The position numbers and the translations under genes were made by a program. The notes under the pieces are model-generated. The model made no database searches and was not told the origin of the DNA. It saw only the letters and a program-made list of their open reading frames with translations. A stretch of DNA of 64,000 bases. Source: a candidate division BRC1 bacterium ADurb.Bin183 (GTDB lineage: Bacteria; Sumerlaeota; Sumerlaeia; MWCT01). Below, piece after piece: positions 9,347 through 35,636 of this stretch. The stretch is from NCBI GenBank assembly GCA_002070185.1, contig MWCT01000012.1:1-64000 (forward strand), written 5' to 3'. Each line of letters begins with the position of its first letter. Position 1 is the first letter of the stretch.

Positions 9347-11944
9347 TTATGAGGTTACGCGCAAAACTTCTTCCACAGTGGTCAAGCCGTTTTTAATTTT
9401 AATCATACCTTCTTCGCGGAGGGTGTGCATCCCCTTTTTTTTGGCAAGGGCGCTGATAACTGAGACTGCGGGGTCAGTTTCAAGGATTTTTTTCATTTCA
9501 CTATCGGGAATCAGCATTTCAAATATTCCCGTGCGCCCGAAATATCCTGTATTATTGCATGTCTGGCATCCCGTTCCTTTCATAAACACGATATCGGTTT
9601 CATCCAAAAGACCGATGAGTTCCAAATCAGGTTTTGAGGGTTTATAGGGCTTTTTGCAATCAGGGCAATTGAGGCGAATCAGACGCTGGGCTATGATAGC
9701 AAGGAGCACAGGCGCGAAACGTTTCGTGGGAATGCCCAGGTCATTCAATCGGGTGAAAGCAGTCGGCGCGTCAATTGTGTGAAGCGTTGTAAAGACAAGG
9801 TGACCTGTTGTCGCGGCATCAATGCCGATGTCTGCGGTTTCCTTGTCGCGAATTTCTCCCACCATGATAATGTCGGGGTCTTGGCGCAGTATGGAGCGCA
9901 AACCTGTGGCAAATGTAAAATTGGCGGCAACATTCACCTGCTGTTGGCTGATGCCCTCCAATTTATATTCAATAGGGTCTTCAATTGTGACTATGTTCTT
10001 ATCGCCGGTATTAATTGTGTGGAGGGCGACGTATAGGGTTGTGGATTTGCCGCTGCCTGATGGTCCGGTGACAAGGACAAGCCCGTATGGTTTGCGGATG
10101 GTGCGTTCAAAATTTTCAAGGTTTTCGCCATCGAGTCCAAGTTTTGTGGAATCAACAAGGATGGATGTGGGGTCAAGAATGCGAATGGAAACTTTTTCTC
10201 CTTGGGCTGCGGGCGATGTGCTAATGCGCAGATCAAGGTCGCGGCTGTCCACCCACATGCTCATGCGTCCATCCTGCGGGATTCGCTTTTCCGATATATC
10301 CAGATTAGTCATAACCTTGATGGCGGAAACGACGGTGTCTGAAACATCTTTGGGCAGGTTCAGGATTTCATAAAGCACGCCGTCAATGCGCGCGCGAATT
10401 TTCAAGCCTTCCAAATCCGGTTCGATATGCAGATCGCTGGAACGTTTTCGATAGGCTGTGGTTATAATGGCGCGAATCAATTTCGCCATAGCATCCTTTT
10501 CAAGAATATTCATTCCCTCGGCATACGTTCCTCTTTTTTTGGAAGCCGCCTGGACGGTTTTGACAAGGTGGAAGATGTAATCTTCAAGGCTGTAAAGGGG
10601 TGTGATGTTCTCATGGCAATGAGGGCAGATGCGGAAGTCGTAATTGGCATAAATATCAATATTATCAATGGCTTTTTTGCAATAGGGGCATCTGTCGCGC
10701 TTTTTTCCCAGACTTATAAATGTCTTGAATAAAAGGATAATCAAATAGGCGGCAAGCCCAACAAGTCCGGTGTATTTGACGAAGGTTGCCATCCGCGCGG
10801 CAAGGAAATCCGCGCGGCTTCCGCGCCACTCAATAATTATCGCAGGAACAACCCAATAAAATAATATTATCAACAGTCCAAGGATTATAAGCGGCGGAAT
10901 GTTTGATTCTGTTGTCCTTTCCCAAATGAGCGCAAAGGCTGTTTTATATTGTTTATTGGTCATCTCCTTCCAGACTTTTTTCCAGAATGCTTTAAAGGGA
11001 AGCGGCGGTGCGGCTACAGTCTGGGTTGGGGCGGCGGGAGTTTCTGTGCTCTGATTTTGTGTCGGCGGAGAGGGCTTTGGCGTCTCTTCTGTGTTTGCTC
11101 GTTCATTTTTTGCTTCTGCTGTTTGCCTAAGGTATATCTGAAATTTTTGTTTGATATCGGGGTTGGATGCAAGGTCATATCCTTTTCTGAAGGCTTCTTC
11201 GGCGGCTTTATATTTTTTTTGATGTTTGAGATTAAATAGACCGCTTGATTCAAGAATCTGCAAATATCGGGGTTCGTTCTGCGGAGTCATGCTCAAGGCT
11301 TTTTCAAGGTTTGCTTCAATCTGGCTATAAAGGGCGGGGTTATTTTGATTAAAATCGGCAACTGCCTGATTGAAATACGCCTGTGAGAGTTTGTTTTTAA
11401 TATCATCTCCCAGGCTTTGCCAGCGAGGATATTGGCGAATAAATTTTTGAAATGCCGGTTTATTTGCGCCGTTAAAAAGAGATTCATATTGATTAATCGC
11501 CGTCTTAAGCTGCGCCGCATCCTCGGAGGTTTTGTCAGCAAGGGCGAGCGCCTGTCCCAGCGCAGAATCGAGCGTTTGAAATAGCATGCCGCTCCCCTGC
11601 TCATTTGTTTCAAGCGCCTCGATGAGAATTAAAACGGCTTCATGAGGTTTGCCTTGCGACAAAAGCGCGTTTGATTTATCATAAACCTGACGGATATTTG
11701 CCGGGAGTTCTATGCTTTCTGTCTTTTCAATCTTATCAATCTCGGACATCGGGACATTTATTTTAACGAGCGATGGAAACGATAAGATTGTGACTTTTTC
11801 ATCCGTTTGATTTGAGATTTTCCCCTCGATAACGGAGCCGTCTTTTTTGCGAATCAAATCAGCGAATGAAAGGGAGCATGCCGCAAAAACAATGAGGAGA
11901 AGAATAACTTGACTTATTATCCCAAGATTTCTTTGTTTGTTCAT
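9347..11944 (-). CDS. Membrane-anchored GspE/PilB-type ATPase with exported-type N-terminal region
   Basis: The protein has 865 residues. Residues 470-865 form a type II secretion/type IV pilus assembly ATPase: RSSDLHIEP, GPSGSGKST with K633, TIEDPIEY, GEIRDKETADIG (Walker B), TTLHT, and the zinc site C760/C763/C793/C796. In front of it lies an unusual part: a signal-peptide-like segment (1-28, ending FAACSLSFA), a small beta-type domain (29-75), a helical TPR-like region (80-280), a Pro/Thr/Gln linker (285-315), two hydrophobic helices (350-367 and 391-411), and a Zn-ribbon CPYC 419-422/CPHC 440-443. Ordinary PilB and GspE are soluble and have none of these. Two helices after an export signal would leave the ATPase outside, so one segment must behave differently. 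No pilin, PilC or secretin genes are adjacent. Assignment of the ATPase domain is firm; the role of the front part is unknown. Confidence 0.9.
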   Translation of the reverse strand: MNKQRNLGIISQVILLLIVFAACSLSFADLIRKKDGSVIEGKISNQTDEKVTILSFPSLVKINVPMSEIDKIEKTESIELPANIRQVYDKSNALLSQGKPHEAVLILIEALETNEQGSGMLFQTLDSALGQALALADKTSEDAAQLKTAINQYESLFNGANKPAFQKFIRQYPRWQSLGDDIKNKLSQAYFNQAVADFNQNNPALYSQIEANLEKALSMTPQNEPRYLQILESSGLFNLKHQKKYKAAEEAFRKGYDLASNPDIKQKFQIYLRQTAEAKNERANTEETPKPSPPTQNQSTETPAAPTQTVAAPPLPFKAFWKKVWKEMTNKQYKTAFALIWERTTESNIPPLIILGLLIILFYWVVPAIIIEWRGSRADFLAARMATFVKYTGLVGLAAYLIILLFKTFISLGKKRDRCPYCKKAIDNIDIYANYDFRICPHCHENITPLYSLEDYIFHLVKTVQAASKKRGTYAEGMNILEKDAMAKLIRAIITTAYRKRSSDLHIEPDLEGLKIRARIDGVLYEILNLPKDVSDTVVSAIKVMTNLDISEKRIPQDGRMSMWVDSRDLDLRISTSPAAQGEKVSIRILDPTSILVDSTKLGLDGENLENFERTIRKPYGLVLVTGPSGSGKSTTLYVALHTINTGDKNIVTIEDPIEYKLEGISQQQVNVAANFTFATGLRSILRQDPDIIMVGEIRDKETADIGIDAATTGHLVFTTLHTIDAPTAFTRLNDLGIPTKRFAPVLLAIIAQRLIRLNCPDCKKPYKPSKPDLELIGLLDETDIVFMKGTGCQTCNNTGYFGRTGIFEMLIPDSEMKKILETDPAVSVISALAKKKGMHTLREEGMIKIKNGLTTVEEVLRVTS

Positions 11945-13556: not shown

Positions 13557-16394
13557 ATGGCAAATCAATTCACATGCATTCAAAAATATTTGAAAAAATT
13601 ATGTCATTTGTTGATTCTTTCGATTCTTTTTACCGTTCCATCAATATATCCTTTCAAACTTTCTCAGGGTTTGTTGGATAAAATAAATGCATGGGCGGGA
13701 AATCACGGGCGCCTTATTAGGTCGCTTTGGGAGTGGCAGCTTGAGCCTTACTTGTATTTTGGTCTTTCTCCGCTGACGCTCAAATGGTTGATAGCGCAAT
13801 CTTATATTGCGGCGCTTTTGGTTGCCTTCATTTTGCTGAAAGTTTTTTCTTCCGGCGGACGCTCTAATTTTTTTAAAAACATCCCATTTATCCTTTCTTT
13901 TATTCTCATTATTTATTCGGGAATATCTGCGCTTCTAATATCTCCAACAATCCACGTCAGCATCATGGCATTTTACAGTCTTGTCCTATTCGTTGTTTTC
14001 TTTTACATCGTTTCCGATGTTGAAAAATCGCCCTCCTTTATCATCAAAACATTTTCACTGATTTCCTGCGTCAGTTTGATGTTGTCTTTTATTGCCTTGT
14101 TGCAGCATCTGCAATTGTCGGATGGGTTCATGCTCCGCTTTGACCGAGTTCGCAACAGCATGGGTTCATTTATTGGACATAATACGGGGCTTTCCTCGTA
14201 TCTAATGACTTCCTATTTTATTGCAATCGCCGCTTTAAGCTTCATAAGAAACAAGTGGATTCGTTATATTCTTTATCTTCTACTTGTCATGGAAGGTTTT
14301 GTAGTTGTCGCGGCGCAAAGCCGAGCTGTGATTGCAATTTTATTTTTCCTCACTCCCATATATCTTGTTTATCTTCACAAAACGACAGGGTTTAGCATTC
14401 GTATCCAGCGGTTGATAACGGCTGGTTTGATTTTGTGTCTTATTGTGCTTTCCCAGATTATTGCTCGTCCATGGAATCCTTTTTATTTTCGCGACGCCCC
14501 GCTCGTAAACCGTTTGCAAGCGTTCAATCCAGAAAACCTGAAAGGGACTCGTCTTCGGATTCTAACGGCATCTCGGTCTTTGCTTCGAGAATCGCCGTTT
14601 TATGGGCACGGCTTTGCCTCTTTTCAGTATGTGTATCCCAAAGCGCAGGCTGATTATTACACTGAGCATCCCAACACTTTGCTTATCCCAACCGATTTGC
14701 GGAGCCAGCAGGCGCACAATGATTATTTGCAGATTTCCATTGAACTGGGCTTTGGCGGATTGTTGTTGATAATGTTGACGCTTTATCTTTTTTTACGGCG
14801 CGGTCAGCGAGCCGCGGAGGAGGTATCCGCCATCTGGCAAAGGCGTCTGCTATGCGCCATTTTCTTTTCATTAACTGCCTATCTTATGCATTGTTTTGTG
14901 GATTTTCCGCTGCAGATTCCTCCCCTTTCTTTGCTCATTCTTTTTTTATTAGCCGTTTGGACATCTGGCGAGCGGATATGGTTAAATCAAAAGGAGCAAT
15001 CAACCGCGCCGTCTCCCGCTTTATTATTAATGGGTTCCTTTTGGGGAAGAGTGTTTATCATCGTATTGCCTTTATTGTTAATCGCTCTTACTCCATTGGC
15101 AAATATGATAAATTTGAGAGCCTTTCGAAGCGATCTTATCTTTTATAAATCGGATATGTATATTCAAACGTTCCATCAATTCCCATCGCTTCCAACAAAG
15201 GAAAGACTTCTTTTATTAAATAATGCGGTTGCCTTGGCGCATCAGGGAACTCGGCAAGACCCGCTCAATAGCGAGATGCAATTCAAGTTTGGCGAGGCTT
15301 CCTATCTACTCGGAGCGTTCTCATGGGATCTGGCGAAAGAGGCTGAAAAAGTTGCTAATGATAAAGAGTTTGAGTTCTGGAAATATTCGGCGCGGCTAAA
15401 TCTTTTGCGCGCAGTGCGTTCGCTTGAGACCGCCCTCAATGAATTCCGATTCCACTCGGTTTATTATTTAATAGGGGTCTGCGAGGAAATACTTGCCAGA
15501 ATAGAGCCGGAAAAAAATCATCTCAGCCGAGCGCGGGAGAATTATGCAATAGCCGTCCGCTATTCTCCCGCTTATGCGCCCGCTCTAAAAGATTATTCAG
15601 AACTTCTTGTGAGAACCTCTCAAAATCTCTCAGAGCGAGAAAAGGCAAAAGCCACATCCGAAATAATAGCGCTGCGCCGTTTGGTGTTGAAGTATCAACC
15701 GGCTTTCTATCAGAAGTATTTCACGGATAGGGCTTATGATGCTCTGATTCAGGAGGATTATGAGCAGGCGATTCCTCTTATGATTGACCTTGTGCAAGTT
15801 GAGCCTGATAATACAAGCCTCCAGATGCAGCTTATAACGGCATTATGCCTTGCCGGTCAATTTGAATATGCGCAAAAAGTCCTTGATGAAATGTCTCATT
15901 CTCATCCAAAGCACCCCGATTTTTATGAAGCCTATGTTTCGTATCACCTTTTCCGAAAGGATTATGCGGCGGCGCTGCCTTATATTCGCAAACGTCTTGA
16001 ATCGCAGGGAACTAATAATAATATTTTTGAAACTCTGGAAGCCCTTTGCTTGGAAGCCCTTGGGAAAAATGACGAAGCCGCTCCCAAAATCGCAGAGTTG
16101 GAAAAGAAAAGCAAAGAAGACCCGACCTATCTTCAAATGCTGGGTATGATGTATATTGATTATTTTGATAATGAAAAAGAAGGAATCCCCTATCTTGAAC
16201 GCCGCGCCGCCCTCCCCATCGCCACAAACTCAAAGGTGTATTATAAACTGGCTCAACATGAGATAAAACAAGGCAATATCAATCAGGCAAAAATATACTT
16301 GGAGCGCGCCTTACTTAATCCGCCCAAATTTAAAAAGGCGCGAGCGCTTTACAATCAAATATCGCAGGGGAAAGGAATAGAGGCTGATGAATAA
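13557..16394 (+). CDS. O-antigen ligase/Wzy-like membrane protein with C-terminal TPR domain
   Basis: The 945-residue protein has two halves. Residues 1-530 hold about a dozen hydrophobic helices and a large loop typical of the Wzy_C/O-antigen ligase family, with the SRAVIAI segment, the loop motif FYGHGFASFQYVYP and the QAHNDYLQISIELGFGG block just before a late membrane pair. Residues 560-945 are helical TPR-type repeats (AYAPALKDYSEL, DYEQAIPLMIDLVQVEPDN, GNINQAKIYLERAL). Such proteins join or polymerise lipid-linked glycans in the outer leaflet of the inner membrane. The TPR part probably sits in the periplasm and binds partners. The start ATG is 7 bases after tldD; the end overlaps the epimerase gene by 8 bases, so a functional link with the epimerase is likely. 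Confidence 0.85.
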   Translation: MANQFTCIQKYLKKLCHLLILSILFTVPSIYPFKLSQGLLDKINAWAGNHGRLIRSLWEWQLEPYLYFGLSPLTLKWLIAQSYIAALLVAFILLKVFSSGGRSNFFKNIPFILSFILIIYSGISALLISPTIHVSIMAFYSLVLFVVFFYIVSDVEKSPSFIIKTFSLISCVSLMLSFIALLQHLQLSDGFMLRFDRVRNSMGSFIGHNTGLSSYLMTSYFIAIAALSFIRNKWIRYILYLLLVMEGFVVVAAQSRAVIAILFFLTPIYLVYLHKTTGFSIRIQRLITAGLILCLIVLSQIIARPWNPFYFRDAPLVNRLQAFNPENLKGTRLRILTASRSLLRESPFYGHGFASFQYVYPKAQADYYTEHPNTLLIPTDLRSQQAHNDYLQISIELGFGGLLLIMLTLYLFLRRGQRAAEEVSAIWQRRLLCAIFFSLTAYLMHCFVDFPLQIPPLSLLILFLLAVWTSGERIWLNQKEQSTAPSPALLLMGSFWGRVFIIVLPLLLIALTPLANMINLRAFRSDLIFYKSDMYIQTFHQFPSLPTKERLLLLNNAVALAHQGTRQDPLNSEMQFKFGEASYLLGAFSWDLAKEAEKVANDKEFEFWKYSARLNLLRAVRSLETALNEFRFHSVYYLIGVCEEILARIEPEKNHLSRARENYAIAVRYSPAYAPALKDYSELLVRTSQNLSEREKAKATSEIIALRRLVLKYQPAFYQKYFTDRAYDALIQEDYEQAIPLMIDLVQVEPDNTSLQMQLITALCLAGQFEYAQKVLDEMSHSHPKHPDFYEAYVSYHLFRKDYAAALPYIRKRLESQGTNNNIFETLEALCLEALGKNDEAAPKIAELEKKSKEDPTYLQMLGMMYIDYFDNEKEGIPYLERRAALPIATNSKVYYKLAQHEIKQGNINQAKIYLERALLNPPKFKKARALYNQISQGKGIEADE

Positions 16395-17469: not shown

Positions 17470-20400
17470 TTACTTTATCATAATCCAGTCAGTGACGTTT
17501 GTCGGCGGTGTTATAGTGATATGGAAGTTCTGGTTGGTTATGACGCCGCCCGCGCCGTCTGATAGATTGAATTTAAAATCATCGGATGAGGCAAAGCCGC
17601 CGTTATGCGCATAGGCGACTCGATTGTTATTGATGTCATCCTGTGTAAAGGTTGTTGCAGGCGAACCGTTGAGCCTGATTGTTCCATTGGATGGTCCTGT
17701 CGTGATTGTGAAGACTAATTGAGACGCCGTGTTATCAACATCCTCAGCCTTGAGGACGTTTTGCCTGATGACTTTAACTTCGCCGCGCGAGCAAACCAAG
17801 CCGGCATTTTTCGTCAACACCGGCGCATCATTAACTGGGGTCACGTTGATATTGAACACGGTGGAGGGGATTGTCCCGCCTTGACCATCGCTCACTGTGA
17901 ACGTGAAAGAATCAGCGGTTGTTTCGCTGCCGTCGTGTGTGTATGTAATGCTATTGGCATCAATATCCGCCTGCGTGAACGTGCCCCCCGCTCCAAGCGC
18001 GGCAGCGCCTTTTTTCAACGTTCCTCTGATTGGCGTAATGCCTATTGTGTAAATGAGTTGGGACGCGCCCTGTTCGGGGTCGGTGGCTCTTAAAAGCGAT
18101 GTTGTTATTGTTCCCGAGCCGCCTTCTAAAACTGTGAGCGGCGAATTATTTACTAAAGTCGGAGCGACATTGACGGCGGCAATATCCCCTGAATTGCGCG
18201 GATTGAGCGTGTAACGCGTGCCGTCGTGGCTGACAACGCCGGTGATGGAATAGGTCCGTCCGATTGTTACAGGCGCGGAGCCTCCAAATTGATGCCATGC
18301 TTCATCATCCACATAGACCTTTGTTATCCCGCCATCTGTTGTTATGCTGAAATAATATTCTGACGAAAAATTATTCGGTGTTGTGGCGAGAGCGCTGGCA
18401 ATAGTCACGAGCGCTCCCTCATACTGCTCGGCTGGGTTAGTGTTTGGTGCAATGGTGTTGGCTATATCGGCGCATGTGACGACGGTTGCCGCAAAGGGCG
18501 TCCCTGTTGTTTTGGATATCAGAATCGGGTTTTGAATCTGCGTTACGGTGTTCGTTTCAAAAACTTGTCCGACTACAATGGGCTGTTCTCCCACCGATAC
18601 AAGGGATTTGAATGATGCGCTTGTAATCAAGATGCCGCGGTTGGCGCCGGCGGCATCGGCAATCCATACTTCATTTACGCCGTCATTGGCGAAAACAATG
18701 CCGCGTGTGGTGATTTTATATGCTGGGTTCAGCGGCGTTCCTGTATTAGGTTGAATATTATTAATCGCCGTTAAACCGGCATAGAATGTTATGTTTTGAT
18801 TGACGCAACCGGGACCGCCGCCATTTGGCTGAACATTATTCACAGTCAGCGTATCAGCGACGCGGTCGCCAGATACTGAGGCGGTTGTGTGGAGGATGAC
18901 CACCTTGTAATCGCTGCCATCGCGTGCGGCTGTATCAAAAGTTATGCCGGGAATGGAGTAATTGGCGGCGGTTTGCGCGCTTGCCAAATCCACGTTTTTA
19001 TCAAAGATAACTTTTACTTCACGGCTTGAAATTGAATAAGCATCAACAACCGATGGAGCCGTATCAATGGTAAGATTATCAATCCATGTTCCTTCCTTTG
19101 AAACGGGACCGCCGGCGTGGTTTTCACGGAATCCCACTTGAAAGGCTCCGGATGTTGGACCGCCTGATGGGATGTCTCCCTGATAAACGACCGTGTTGTT
19201 CAGTTTGACAACAAGGCGATTGGATGTATTGGCGTTGGGATCAATGCACATATAAAAGGTTGTCCAACTGCCCGCGGTGATTCCAAGTTCAGAAATAGTT
19301 TTTGAGGCAAGCAATGTAACTGGGGTTCCATCCATGTTGTCATTGGATGCATAGACAAACTCACACACTCCCGGATGATTGGGACGTCCGTTATTTAAGT
19401 CAACCCCTGGCGCATTTTCGTAAATCAGCCAGTAGCCGGAATCGTAACCGGAATCATTGACCGAGATGGAGGTAAAGAATGTGCTGCCCTGCCTGCCACA
19501 GATGCCGATGGCGGACGCTTGCGCCGGGTCTGTTGACGGCTGAATATAAATTTCTCCGGATACTTTATAGCCGGTATTATTCGCTCCAAGTGATGCATCG
19601 CCTATGACGGAAATGACGCCGCCGCCGGTTGTATCAACACAACGATGGGCGTTCCCGCCGCTGGGCGACGCGGGGAGTCCGGCTGTTGTGGGATTTGCAA
19701 CGGTGAAACTTTGATAGGTTTGAAACGCATTGGCAGGCGCTGTCGAAAAATTATAGGTTGTCGGAAATGTTGTTATTGAGCTTCCATTGGGGCTCCCGGG
19801 TGTGTAAGGCATAAAGGTAAAATCATCGAAATTAACAAAAGAATTATTGCCATCGGGGAAACGTCCCAGAGTATACGGCTTTGTTCCGCCGCTATCTGTT
19901 CCGGTGCCAATAGCTCCGCACCATGGATAACCGTTATCCGTCGCCCCAAGAGCAAAGGGACGATTGAGGTATCCCATGCCGCCCATTGCCCTATAAACCA
20001 CAGAATCATAGACATAACCGGTTGATGAGTCATAAAGTTGTATTGCCGCGGGAGATATATCGGGGATATCGTCCACGCTCGCGCTGAAACCGGTTGAATA
20101 ATCAACGTTGGCTGTATCGGGGTCTCCCACCACAAAAAAACCATACCCGCCGGCGTCATTGGGAATGGTCTGCCCGCCAAGGGCGATTGTTGTCACAGAC
20201 TCAGAGTCTCCGCTTAAAAAGCGTAATTCAAAATTGGCTGGCAATGCGCCTGCGGGTCCATAGATTTCCACAAACTCTTTGGAATTGCCATGATACCGAA
20301 ATTCATTGATAACGTAATTTTTGGCGTTCGGCGGCGCGGGCGACCAACGCAGTTCATCGAAATAAACGGAGCCGCCGCCTGTGGATGAACCGTTTTCTAT

Positions 20401-22299
20401 GAGGAATCCAATAAGCGCCAGATCGCGCGCCCCCGCGCCGTCGGTGTCAATCGTTCCATCGCCATCTTTATACTGATTAAAGTCTGTGTTATAAGCCGAG
20501 ACGGGATCTGCGCGTAAGTCCCACGTCAAAGTTCTCCAGCCGGAGGAATTTAGACTGTATTGTTTGCTCTGTTCAAGTTCGCCTTTTTTGTCCATCAATA
20601 TCATTCGCACGGTTCGGTTGGCATATGCGGAAGGGGTATAAACATCCACCATGACTTTCGAGTTCAGGCTGAAAAAACCCTTTGCCGCCCAGAGGTCTTG
20701 TTGTGTTGTTTCAGTGTGATGCCCAAGGATTTCGTATCTGAATAATTCTCTTCCGTTTGCGCCGGAAAAATTAAAATTTATTCTCATACAATTTGTGGTA
20801 TTGGCAGGTTTGCCAGTTCCGGCGGGAGCGGCAACAATGCTTCTGAATGTTGAATAAGAGCCTGCATTTACATCATCTTTTCGGTCATTGGCAGCAGCGC
20901 CGTTATCGCGCCAGCGGGCATCAAGCGCTTCCCATTTTTCAATCGGATAGGCGCGAGTTCCCGGCGGCGCAAGCATTTCGAGCGTTGCCTGATAAATCAT
21001 CGGATAGGTGCGGTTTTTACTTTCCAGTTTCCCCGATTCCATGTCGAAAGATTTGAAGGATGATGAATAATTCGGCGCCATCCACATAAGCGACCAGAAG
21101 CCAACGCCGCGGAGTTTTCTTCCGGGGTAACTTGAACCAATCCAGCTGCGGGCGGCGCGAATTTTTACGGCAAGGGAGATTTCGTCATCATACATAATTG
21201 TTGTATAATCTGTTCCGTTGTAATAAGAAAACCAAGGCGATTCTGCACCGGAACGATACTGACGAGTGCGTAGAGTAGCGCTTAGTGTTGTATTAAATTT
21301 TGCGGCGCAATAACCGTATGAGCCGTTATGATTAATCACGCTGGCGCCATAACCCGCTGTAACGGTGTCAAAACTAACACCATAGGAGGGCAATGTCAGA
21401 ACCATTTTTTCCGGCGGGCATCCGGCATCCATATACTTATTTACCTGCGTCACATAGCTGCTTTGCGGAGCTACGGCAATTGCCGTCGTACTCCAACTGC
21501 CCGACCACGGATAGCAGCTGTAATTAATATAATCAAGGTCATCAATCGCTCCGCTTATGAGTATGCTAAAGCGTGAATAATACGTTGGGCTCAAATAGAT
21601 TGAAAGTTCCTTGTCAGCATTCAACGCCGCGCGCAGTTTTGCGATAAAATCAACGATTCCATTTGTTGTGGCTACTGAGGTGCCGCTGTCAAAAGGTTCA
21701 AAATCAAGATTAACTCCTGCGCAATTGTCCGAGGTATTATTGACAATGGCTGCCACTTCATTCGCAAGTGTTTGACGTTTGCCATCATCCTGCATAACGG
21801 AATCAAGGATACTTGGATCAAATCCGTTATTTATTATTGTAAAAATAACTTTTACACCGCATATATCTGCGGCGCCGCCTGGTTTCAATTCCGCTGCGCG
21901 CGATGTCCAACCGCCGCTCGAAACATTTCCATTTGAATTGAAACTTGAAAATTCCGCCGCTATATGAGTCAACGCTTGCCAGCAATATTGATGTGCGATT
22001 GAATCGTTTTGCGCATAACCAAGCACAATAAAATCATTTGTGTTGATGCTTGGCGTGCTTAAAAGGCGTTTGGCTGGAATTTTGGTCTCTTCCGCCGGTT
22101 GGATTTCATAATCTTTTTTTGCAAGAAAGGGTTCAATCATCGTTTGTTGAGTTCCGTGTTCGCTATATCCTAACGGCATACCTTGAACATCTGCCTCATT
22201 TTCAGAATCAGGGGAGGGGGTTTGTCCAAAGCAGGAAAATCCAACCGCTATCAACCAACAAACAAGAAAAAGGGCACAAATCTTTTTCATAATTTTCAA
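17470..22299 (-). CDS. Large secreted multidomain protein: GH18-like hydrolase, Lamin-tail and CSPG/cadherin-like repeats
   Basis: The protein has 1609 residues. An N-terminal signal (MKIMKKICALFLVCWLIAVG, possible lipoprotein cysteine C23) is followed by a GH18-like domain (about 85-420). This domain carries GVNLDFEP at 195-202, with E201 as the presumed catalytic acid, and a final LRGVGFWSLMW strand, as in YaaH-type and chitinase-like enzymes. Next come a jelly-roll-like stretch, a Lamin-tail-like domain (about 660-820, NYVINEFRYHG..KEFVEIYG), a laminin-G-like part, a Big_5-like segment (about 1090-1140), an OB-type segment, and two CSPG/NG2-like repeats (about 1390-1600, with FTQADIDANSITYTHDG and TQDDINNNRVAYAHNGG). 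No anchoring signal is visible at the carboxyl end. A role in hydrolysing or binding extracellular glycans is likely; the exact substrate is unknown. Confidence 0.85.
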   Translation of the reverse strand: MKIMKKICALFLVCWLIAVGFSCFGQTPSPDSENEADVQGMPLGYSEHGTQQTMIEPFLAKKDYEIQPAEETKIPAKRLLSTPSINTNDFIVLGYAQNDSIAHQYCWQALTHIAAEFSSFNSNGNVSSGGWTSRAAELKPGGAADICGVKVIFTIINNGFDPSILDSVMQDDGKRQTLANEVAAIVNNTSDNCAGVNLDFEPFDSGTSVATTNGIVDFIAKLRAALNADKELSIYLSPTYYSRFSILISGAIDDLDYINYSCYPWSGSWSTTAIAVAPQSSYVTQVNKYMDAGCPPEKMVLTLPSYGVSFDTVTAGYGASVINHNGSYGYCAAKFNTTLSATLRTRQYRSGAESPWFSYYNGTDYTTIMYDDEISLAVKIRAARSWIGSSYPGRKLRGVGFWSLMWMAPNYSSSFKSFDMESGKLESKNRTYPMIYQATLEMLAPPGTRAYPIEKWEALDARWRDNGAAANDRKDDVNAGSYSTFRSIVAAPAGTGKPANTTNCMRINFNFSGANGRELFRYEILGHHTETTQQDLWAAKGFFSLNSKVMVDVYTPSAYANRTVRMILMDKKGELEQSKQYSLNSSGWRTLTWDLRADPVSAYNTDFNQYKDGDGTIDTDGAGARDLALIGFLIENGSSTGGGSVYFDELRWSPAPPNAKNYVINEFRYHGNSKEFVEIYGPAGALPANFELRFLSGDSESVTTIALGGQTIPNDAGGYGFFVVGDPDTANVDYSTGFSASVDDIPDISPAAIQLYDSSTGYVYDSVVYRAMGGMGYLNRPFALGATDNGYPWCGAIGTGTDSGGTKPYTLGRFPDGNNSFVNFDDFTFMPYTPGSPNGSSITTFPTTYNFSTAPANAFQTYQSFTVANPTTAGLPASPSGGNAHRCVDTTGGGVISVIGDASLGANNTGYKVSGEIYIQPSTDPAQASAIGICGRQGSTFFTSISVNDSGYDSGYWLIYENAPGVDLNNGRPNHPGVCEFVYASNDNMDGTPVTLLASKTISELGITAGSWTTFYMCIDPNANTSNRLVVKLNNTVVYQGDIPSGGPTSGAFQVGFRENHAGGPVSKEGTWIDNLTIDTAPSVVDAYSISSREVKVIFDKNVDLASAQTAANYSIPGITFDTAARDGSDYKVVILHTTASVSGDRVADTLTVNNVQPNGGGPGCVNQNITFYAGLTAINNIQPNTGTPLNPAYKITTRGIVFANDGVNEVWIADAAGANRGILITSASFKSLVSVGEQPIVVGQVFETNTVTQIQNPILISKTTGTPFAATVVTCADIANTIAPNTNPAEQYEGALVTIASALATTPNNFSSEYYFSITTDGGITKVYVDDEAWHQFGGSAPVTIGRTYSITGVVSHDGTRYTLNPRNSGDIAAVNVAPTLVNNSPLTVLEGGSGTITTSLLRATDPEQGASQLIYTIGITPIRGTLKKGAAALGAGGTFTQADIDANSITYTHDGSETTADSFTFTVSDGQGGTIPSTVFNINVTPVNDAPVLTKNAGLVCSRGEVKVIRQNVLKAEDVDNTASQLVFTITTGPSNGTIRLNGSPATTFTQDDINNNRVAYAHNGGFASSDDFKFNLSDGAGGVITNQNFHITITPPTNVTDWIMIK

Positions 22300-34535: not shown

Positions 34536-35636
34536 ATGGCTGTAAATTTCGGGCAATTATTATCCAATATGAAAATCGTCGGCGCTTCGGACTTGCATAT
34601 CAAATCCGGCGCTCCTCCCGTTTATCGCATCATGGGAAAACTCACCCCTATCAATCACCCGCCCATTTCAAAGGAAGAAGTTAGCGCCATTGTGGCAAAA
34701 ATATTGCCGGAAAAAATGAAAGACATGCTTCAAAAAGACGGCTCTTGCGATTTTGCCTTCAGCATTGATGCCGCCACGCGCTTTAGAACAAACGCCTATT
34801 ATCAAAAAGGGGCGCTGAATATTGCGCTGCGCCGTCTCCAATATGAAGACCTAAGTTTTGAACGATTGGGATTGCCGCCAGTTCTTGCCAATATCGGTAA
34901 ATTAAAAAGAGGCATGGTTTTGACAACAGGTCCTACAGGAACAGGAAAATCCACAACAATGGCGGCGATCGTTGATTACATTAATAACACGCGCGCAGAA
35001 CACATCATCACCATTGAAGACCCTATCGAGTTTGTGCATAAGGACAAATTGAGTCTTGTGGAACAGCGCGAGATCGGGCTTGATGCACGGTCTTTCGAAG
35101 AAGGCTTGCGCCATGCCCTTCGTCAAGACCCTAATGTTATCATGATCGGGGAAATGCGCGATCGCGAAACAATACTAATCGCCATCAGGGCTGCCATGAC
35201 AGGGCATCTTGTCATCAGCACGCTGCATACCATCAACGCCGTTCATACGGTGTCGCGCATGGTCAAATATTTCTCGGTGGAGGAGCAGGATTCCATGCGC
35301 AATGAGATTGCGACCGCGCTCAAAGCGGTGGTTTCACAGCGGCTTGTCCCGACAAAAGACGGAAAAGGGCGCATCCCTTGTGTGGAAGTTATGATTGTCA
35401 ACGATATTGTCAGGAAACTGATTATGGAAAACCGCATCCTCGATATTGAACAGGTTATCCGTAACGGCGTGGATGAGATGCAGTCGTTTGATCAATCGTT
35501 GGCGCATTTATGCCGCGCCGGCAAAATCAGCATGGAAACGGGCGAGGAGTATTCCGACGATATCGCCGGTTACAGGCGTTTGTGCAAAGGCGTCAGCGCC
35601 GGGACAGATAGGGCAGGTCTTATCGGAGGCTTCTAA
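34536..35636 (+). CDS. pilT: Type IV pilus retraction ATPase PilT
   Basis: The 366-residue protein is a PilT-type ATPase: SDLHIKSGAPPVYRI, then Walker A GPTGTGKST, ITIEDPIEFVH, RHALRQDPNVIMIGEMRD as Walker B, and TGHLVISTLHT. The C-terminal AIRAAMTGH and QRLVP segments fit PilT rather than PilB. It drives pilus retraction and twitching. AAGGAGAGG lies 7 bases before the ATG. No other pil genes are adjacent; the separate membrane-anchored PilB/GspE-like protein at 9347-11944 could be the opposing extension motor. It is co-transcribed with coaBC, and its stop is 30 bases from the convergent lipoprotein gene. Confidence 0.95.
   Translation: MAVNFGQLLSNMKIVGASDLHIKSGAPPVYRIMGKLTPINHPPISKEEVSAIVAKILPEKMKDMLQKDGSCDFAFSIDAATRFRTNAYYQKGALNIALRRLQYEDLSFERLGLPPVLANIGKLKRGMVLTTGPTGTGKSTTMAAIVDYINNTRAEHIITIEDPIEFVHKDKLSLVEQREIGLDARSFEEGLRHALRQDPNVIMIGEMRDRETILIAIRAAMTGHLVISTLHTINAVHTVSRMVKYFSVEEQDSMRNEIATALKAVVSQRLVPTKDGKGRIPCVEVMIVNDIVRKLIMENRILDIEQVIRNGVDEMQSFDQSLAHLCRAGKISMETGEEYSDDIAGYRRLCKGVSAGTDRAGLIGGF

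Follow-up and report, generated by a model that had tools for sequence, protein, structure and literature searches.

A GspE/PilB-type ATPase with a predicted membrane anchor and exported domain in the phylum Sumerlaeota

The window (the whole stretch of 64,000 nucleotides analyzed here) carries a gene whose product joins, in one chain, a signal peptide, a domain predicted to be exported, a predicted transmembrane helix and an ATPase of the GspE/PilB class. We read this protein as an integral-membrane variant of the class, with a periplasmic barrel and TPR domain, one crossing of the membrane and a cytoplasmic ATPase, that would act as a self-anchored motor in place of docking on PilM or GspL; we put the probability of this reading at about 0.6. 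The anchored ATPase is a widespread feature of the uncultured phylum Sumerlaeota. An assembly ATPase lying in the membrane with an extracytoplasmic domain of its own would represent an arrangement new to such motors.

Extension ATPases of the GspE/PilB kind drive polymerization via PilC/GspF, and GspL and PilM are the docking partners that hold the assembly ATPase at the membrane. According to the retrieved part of a review, PilB sits in a cytoplasmic socket of PilM, with its N-terminal domain as the likely contact; in some species this domain is a cyclic-di-GMP site, and the known assembly ATPases are six-copy rings (PMC11656802). Docking and signal input of type IV filament ATPases, which involve separate proteins and the N-terminal domain, are described there as poorly understood. 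A naturally occurring variant whose ATPase forms one chain with membrane and periplasmic parts would allow the role of docking to be tested directly. In the retrieved main text of the same review, the terms "transmembrane" and "signal peptide" occur zero times, and the retrieved part of a paper on Sumerlaeota (PMC8092238) gives one sentence to pili. No assembly ATPase with a signal peptide or a transmembrane segment was found among the papers listed in a literature search, which covered titles and the beginnings of abstracts, most subscription journals lying outside its scope.

The gene is a single open reading frame on the minus strand that starts with ATG and encodes 865 residues. Its features are the following.

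9347..11944, minus strand: whole gene of the membrane-anchored GspE/PilB-type ATPase (open reading frame and Pfam)
11861..11944, minus strand: signal peptide, residues 1-28 (hydrophobic core; likely cut SFA|DLI, placed by eye)
11726..11860, minus strand: five-stranded beta barrel, residues 29-73, predicted periplasmic (AlphaFold2)
11093..11701, minus strand: TPR-like helical solenoid, residues 82-284, predicted periplasmic (AlphaFold2 and structure matches)
10997..11092, minus strand: proline-rich linker, residues 285-316 (invariant prolines; low pLDDT)
10817..10897, minus strand: transmembrane helix 1, residues 350-376, with a predicted outside-to-inside direction (hydropathy, alignment, AlphaFold2)
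10769..10831, minus strand: basic stretch after helix 1, overlapping the end of the helix, predicted inside (net charge in 29/29 rows)
10712..10765, minus strand: second hydrophobic segment, residues 394-411, interpreted as interfacial or re-entrant (hydropathy, alignment)
10616..10690, minus strand: four-cysteine ribbon CPYC...CPHC, residues 419-443 (zinc binding assumed from the motif)
9359..10498, minus strand: T2SSE ATPase domain, residues 483-862 (Pfam)
10040..10066, minus strand: Walker A, GPSGSGKST (pattern in 29/29 rows)
9845..9871, minus strand: Walker B, IIMVGEIRD (pattern in 29/29 rows)
9557..9667, minus strand: C-terminal tetracysteine, CPDC...CQTC (pattern in 29/29 rows)

The earlier note, made from the letters of this DNA, had described an ATPase fused to a signal peptide, an exported-type domain and hydrophobic segments, and this is confirmed by the reading frame, the Pfam T2SSE match, the hydropathy profile and the AlphaFold2 model. 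Several positions outside the ATPase domain are strongly conserved. The linker prolines P289, P294 and P313 are invariant in nine of nine aligned rows, and of the 28 relatives 26 share W364 and 27 share P367 within helix 1. The ribbon cysteines at positions 419, 422, 440 and 443 are invariant in 18 rows (the window protein and 17 relatives) and, in the larger alignment, are kept in all 28 relatives, the window row being outside this count. A weak Pfam line (PF06750, E = 0.19) raised the possibility that the ribbon is a relative of the four-cysteine domain of prepilin peptidases. When profiles were compared, using 21 prepilin peptidases, the hhalign probability was 0.1 out of 100 and the ribbon itself stayed unaligned; the idea was rejected.

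The ATPase half belongs to a familiar class. Pfam T2SSE matches residues 483-862 with an E value of 1.6e-122, and the closest solved structures are those of GspE, 4kss, 4ksr and 1p9r (E = 1.1e-112), followed by PilF/PilB. Like GspE and PilB (PilF; PF00437), the protein has Walker A and B motifs, Asp and His boxes and a C-terminal tetracysteine, and patterns for all of these are found in the window protein and in the 28 other Sumerlaeota rows. The patterns were widened after the Asp box had first been scored in 20 of 29 rows; they are a rough test, since even in their widened form some of 30 ordinary ATPases are missed (the Asp box is found in 21, Walker B in 25 and the His box in 27). The equivalog models place the window protein below their cut-offs, at 488 of 630 bits for GspE (TIGR02533) and 464 of 676 for PilB (TIGR02538), a score that separates poorly because only two of the five ordinary paralogues in the same genome pass one of these cut-offs. 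The core is also related to that of the retraction ATPases PilT and PilU, and here the score for TIGR01420 is 167 bits, short of the cut-off of 319.

The difference from GspE and PilB lies upstream of this core. Where these have an N1/MshEN domain, the window protein has a signal peptide, a predicted exported barrel and TPR region, a transmembrane helix and the ribbon. No MshEN match (PF05157) was detected in the window protein at E values up to 1, nor in five anchored relatives scanned at E values up to 0.1; the domain is thus present in five of the five ordinary paralogues of the genome and in none of the six anchored proteins scanned. Ordinary ATPases are described as cytoplasmic and devoid of transmembrane segments, whereas the window protein is hydrophobic at residues 13-31 and 353-371 (19-residue Kyte-Doolittle maxima of 2.59 and 2.92), with further maxima at 388-406 (1.98) and 395-413 (2.02). 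By the same measure, a 19-residue segment with a hydropathy of at least 1.5 upstream of the ATPase occurs in none of 32 ordinary GspE/PilB-type frames, five from the same genome and 27 from five other genomes among the matches listed, three of them shorter than 450 residues. The earlier note was right that an assembly-type ATPase held in the membrane, and equipped with its own exported domain and ribbon, differs in design from soluble PilB. GspL and PilM offer another comparison: they hold the ATPase at the membrane, an end that the anchored protein would also serve, but with anchor and ATPase as one chain. The likeness here is one of role, taken from the description of these proteins.

In a tree of 70 ATPase domains, a single branch with a support of 100/99 separates the 37 anchored rows (29 from Sumerlaeota and eight from a second phylum) from 30 ordinary and three PilT rows. 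The root of this tree is not known and several branches are long, including PilT and two rows with lost motifs; a single origin of the anchored form is allowed by the tree, not proved. L102, a duplicate of L096, and the non-PilT rows spanning fewer than 330 domain residues (L022, L104, L130 and L135) were kept out of the tree and of the motif counts. One row on a long branch, L128 (genome G007), is a 757-residue ATPase frame adjoining a PilC gene, with about 376 residues ahead of the ATPase domain and no hydrophobic segment.

Relatives of the anchored protein were sought in several ways. With residues 1-488 as the query, matches were obtained in 35 of 61 genomes, every one of these 35 in Sumerlaeota, and in none of the 21 genomes outside the phylum; some of the weak rows correspond to the exported part only and are not necessarily the same gene. 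Leaving aside the window itself (L009) and L022, where only a 235-residue ATPase fragment is in frame, the 30 loci provide 28 relatives, which were aligned with the window protein in 29 rows. The search for homologues of the same architecture, proposed in the earlier note, was successful: the same domain order is found in single frames of relatives. Stop-to-stop frames are 816 to 1077 residues long in 24 of the 29 rows. Of the shorter ones, L018 (582) and L031 (638) are truncated where their contigs end; the rest are L020 (761) and two polytopic proteins, L028 (707) and L030 (690). These frames also bear on the idea that 9347-11944 might consist of two genes, fused through a sequence or assembly error near residues 280-345. 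Nothing except the unusual layout speaks for such an error, and it is excluded because relatives in other assemblies cross these residues in one frame; the likelihood that we would still grant it is negligible.

The distribution was followed further with profile A1, built from the helix-to-ribbon region of 18 rows. It matches 32 of 40 Sumerlaeota genomes and 10 of 346 other genomes; two of the eight Sumerlaeota genomes in which it has no match are at least 90% complete. Two of the matching genomes outside Sumerlaeota represent one family, and the form is present in nine of the 14 genomes of that second phylum, in proteins with the same kind of start, a helix bearing a WYxP motif and the second segment. 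Beyond both phyla, G167 gives a match at 1.6e-7, and seven further matches fall between 3.9e-4 and 7.6e-4. In a related search, eight records were from Candidatus Sumerlaeota (older name BRC1) and the ninth, from Prevotellaceae, matched over the ribbon only. Some members depart from the common form. In L013 (genome G029), the signal peptide is closely followed by an in-frame stop, reflecting either an assembly error or a broken gene, and the row was taken from after this stop. L028, L030 and L034 have a membrane region in place of the exported domain, in which five, five and seven helices, respectively, are predicted ahead of the ribbon.

The fold of the N-terminal part was predicted with AlphaFold2. 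A full-length model from nine rows forms a barrel at residues 29-73 and helices from 82 to 284, and its helices 350-376 and 394-411 coincide with the two hydrophobic segments. Across the barrel and the helical part, the ten-residue means of pLDDT lie between 81 and 93, with five exceptions: 79 (41-50), 68 (51-60), 58 (71-80), 74 (81-90) and 68 (111-120). In a separate model of the N-terminal part, these means range from 72 to 98 through the final helix. The full-length model is poor in its ATPase half (mean pLDDT of 57.2), which was left unused. Foldseek and VIA-align match the N-terminal part to TPR and 14-3-3 structures, including 3sf4 with Z = 14.6 over 132 residues at 3.1 A; the top row, 3fp4, has Z = 15.2 at 11.6 A. 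By the tool's own warning, such Z scores are common for helical repeats. In the barrel region, NCBIfam NF047433 aligns with residues 15-53 at 25.3 bits, against a cut-off of 43. A 747-residue frame at G000:C10:15571-15894 is weakly similar to residues 13-117 of the window protein (E = 2.4e-6) and is perhaps another exported protein with a similar start.

The arrangement of this chain in the membrane had been presented as inconsistent, since a signal peptide followed by two crossings would leave the ATPase outside. The difficulty is real only if the second segment fully crosses; the comparison of 29 rows argues that it usually does not. The best reading of the aligned sequences is a periplasmic N-terminal domain, one crossing and a cytoplasmic ATPase. 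An approximate insertion energy is lower for helix 1 than for segment 2 in 28 of the 29 rows (the exception being L010), and that of segment 2 is above zero, that is unfavorable, in 27; the scale is a rough one with approximate weighting, by which helix 1, too, lies above zero in eight of the 29 rows. The median uncharged run is 23 residues in helix 1 and 14 in segment 2, where the longest such run measures 10 to 17 residues in 24 of 29 rows. In seven second-phylum proteins (L098 and L103 being outside this count), a charged residue stands 10 to 11 positions past the glycine that opens the segment. A hydropathy threshold of 1.5 would make segment 2 a helix in 12 of the 29 rows, and the segment also reaches 1.7 in L104 and L105. 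Most likely, then, the second segment does not cross, a conclusion that is less certain for the window protein than for the family. Indeed, a second crossing is possible in the window protein and in its closest relative (the L010 row) because their segment 2 energies are negative (-0.6 and -1.8, respectively). The re-entrant helix offered earlier as a way out fits the second segment across the relatives, and the window protein's own sequence does not settle the matter because its second segment is hydrophobic enough.

The other way out, an uncleaved first segment that keeps the N-terminal domain inside, would make residues 350-376 and 394-411 a membrane hairpin with both ends of the chain in the cytoplasm. 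For the window protein, the hydrophobicity of the two segments would allow this, and both outer flanks are net positive. It is disfavored by the starts of the relatives, which resemble signal peptides (judged by eye) in 23 of the 23 rows with a readable, non-polytopic N-terminus, and by the stretch after helix 1, which the hairpin would place outside although it is net positive in 29 of 29 rows. This stretch is also more positive than the one before the helix in 28 of the 29, with a tie in L012. Moreover, segment 2 is short in most rows, and the ribbon of L038 is preceded by just a signal segment and a single helix, hence no second helix. We regard the hairpin as improbable. Among the polytopic proteins, the loop charges of the five helices of L028 fit a cytoplasmic C-terminus, and those of L030 and L034 alternate weakly.

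The sequences themselves establish one gene, its order of domains, intact ATPase motifs, the lack of an MshEN match and the spread through a phylum; folds and topology are predictions, and the ring, the sharing of a platform and the gating are inferred. Taking the single crossing as the preferred topology, the following mechanism can be proposed. The signal peptide would send the N-terminus out and would probably be cut, leaving the barrel and the TPR solenoid in the periplasm. Helix 350-376 would cross back, so that the ribbon and the ATPase come to lie in the cytoplasm just under the membrane, with segment 394-411 resting on the membrane or dipping into it but not crossing. Several anchored copies, probably six, may assemble into a ring that is kept at the membrane by the helices of the copies themselves and not by docking of an N1/MshEN domain on PilM or GspL, and this ring may push on a shared PilC/GspF platform. 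On the outer face, the TPR domains could bind an envelope partner (an alignment complex, a secretin, a pseudopilin or cargo) that would place or gate the motor from outside. More tentatively, since we consider it somewhat doubtful in this full form, the protein could be a single-chain type IV filament motor, comprising ATPase, anchor and periplasmic TPR receptor, that two phyla have shared from old and that bypasses both PilM/GspL docking and cyclic-di-GMP control, the periplasm gating it directly.

The main alternative keeps the same anchored topology and supposes that the protein is no longer a filament motor, serving instead as a signaling or scaffold ATPase that reports the state of the periplasm to the cytoplasm. 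The setting of the gene is in its favor. The gene is solitary: across 21 loci (those of 20 relatives plus the first 40 kb of the window), the ATPase is the only family that occurs in more than five. Among the 40 nearest neighbors in the 20 relatives (38 scanned with Pfam and two with NCBIfam, at E values up to 1e-8), there is no pilus or type II secretion family; ten have no match at all and one has an FHA domain. For L087, a 152-residue frame was skipped and the next gene scanned instead. The gene's own contig, C12, has no T2SSF/PilC match, while four of the five ordinary GspE/PilB-type ATPases of the genome directly adjoin a T2SSF (PilC-type) gene, and no tie of the anchored ATPase to a given filament was found on that contig or among the 40 neighbors. 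In addition, one second-phylum family (L103 and L105, L104 being cut) is anchored and keeps Walker A and the tetracysteine, with the usual Asp and His boxes lost and Walker B altered, suggesting a non-catalytic or changed role in that family. Against this alternative, all 29 Sumerlaeota rows retain the ATPase patterns and the tetracysteine, and GspE and PilB are still the best matches of the domain. Also against it, a PilT-family gene (417 bits, cut-off 319) is located about 3 kb downstream in L094, separated from the ATPase gene by two others. We judge this alternative unlikely, while taking it more seriously than the hairpin, and retain the self-anchored motor as the preferred reading.

A few observations concern the surroundings of these genes. 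The genome has PilM-type genes. The best of them lies at C2:317217-318329, and a secretin is encoded at C2:312711. At L005 (G000:C4), an ordinary MshEN ATPase has no adjoining PilC, and a PilT-like match lies shortly downstream. TPR genes two places off in L095 and L096 match PilW far below the cut-off. In the window, a PilT-family retraction ATPase (TIGR01420, 419 bits) is encoded at 34536-35636 on the plus strand, about 22.6 kb from the anchored ATPase gene, after a pantothenate flavoprotein gene and a guanylate kinase gene. Positions 13557-16394 (plus strand) encode an O-antigen-ligase-type protein with C-terminal TPR repeats, a family that recurs, among the 21 loci, only in the closest relative, L078. 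Finally, positions 17470-22299 (minus strand) encode a protein of 1609 residues that combines a glycosyl hydrolase 18 domain with cadherin-like repeats.
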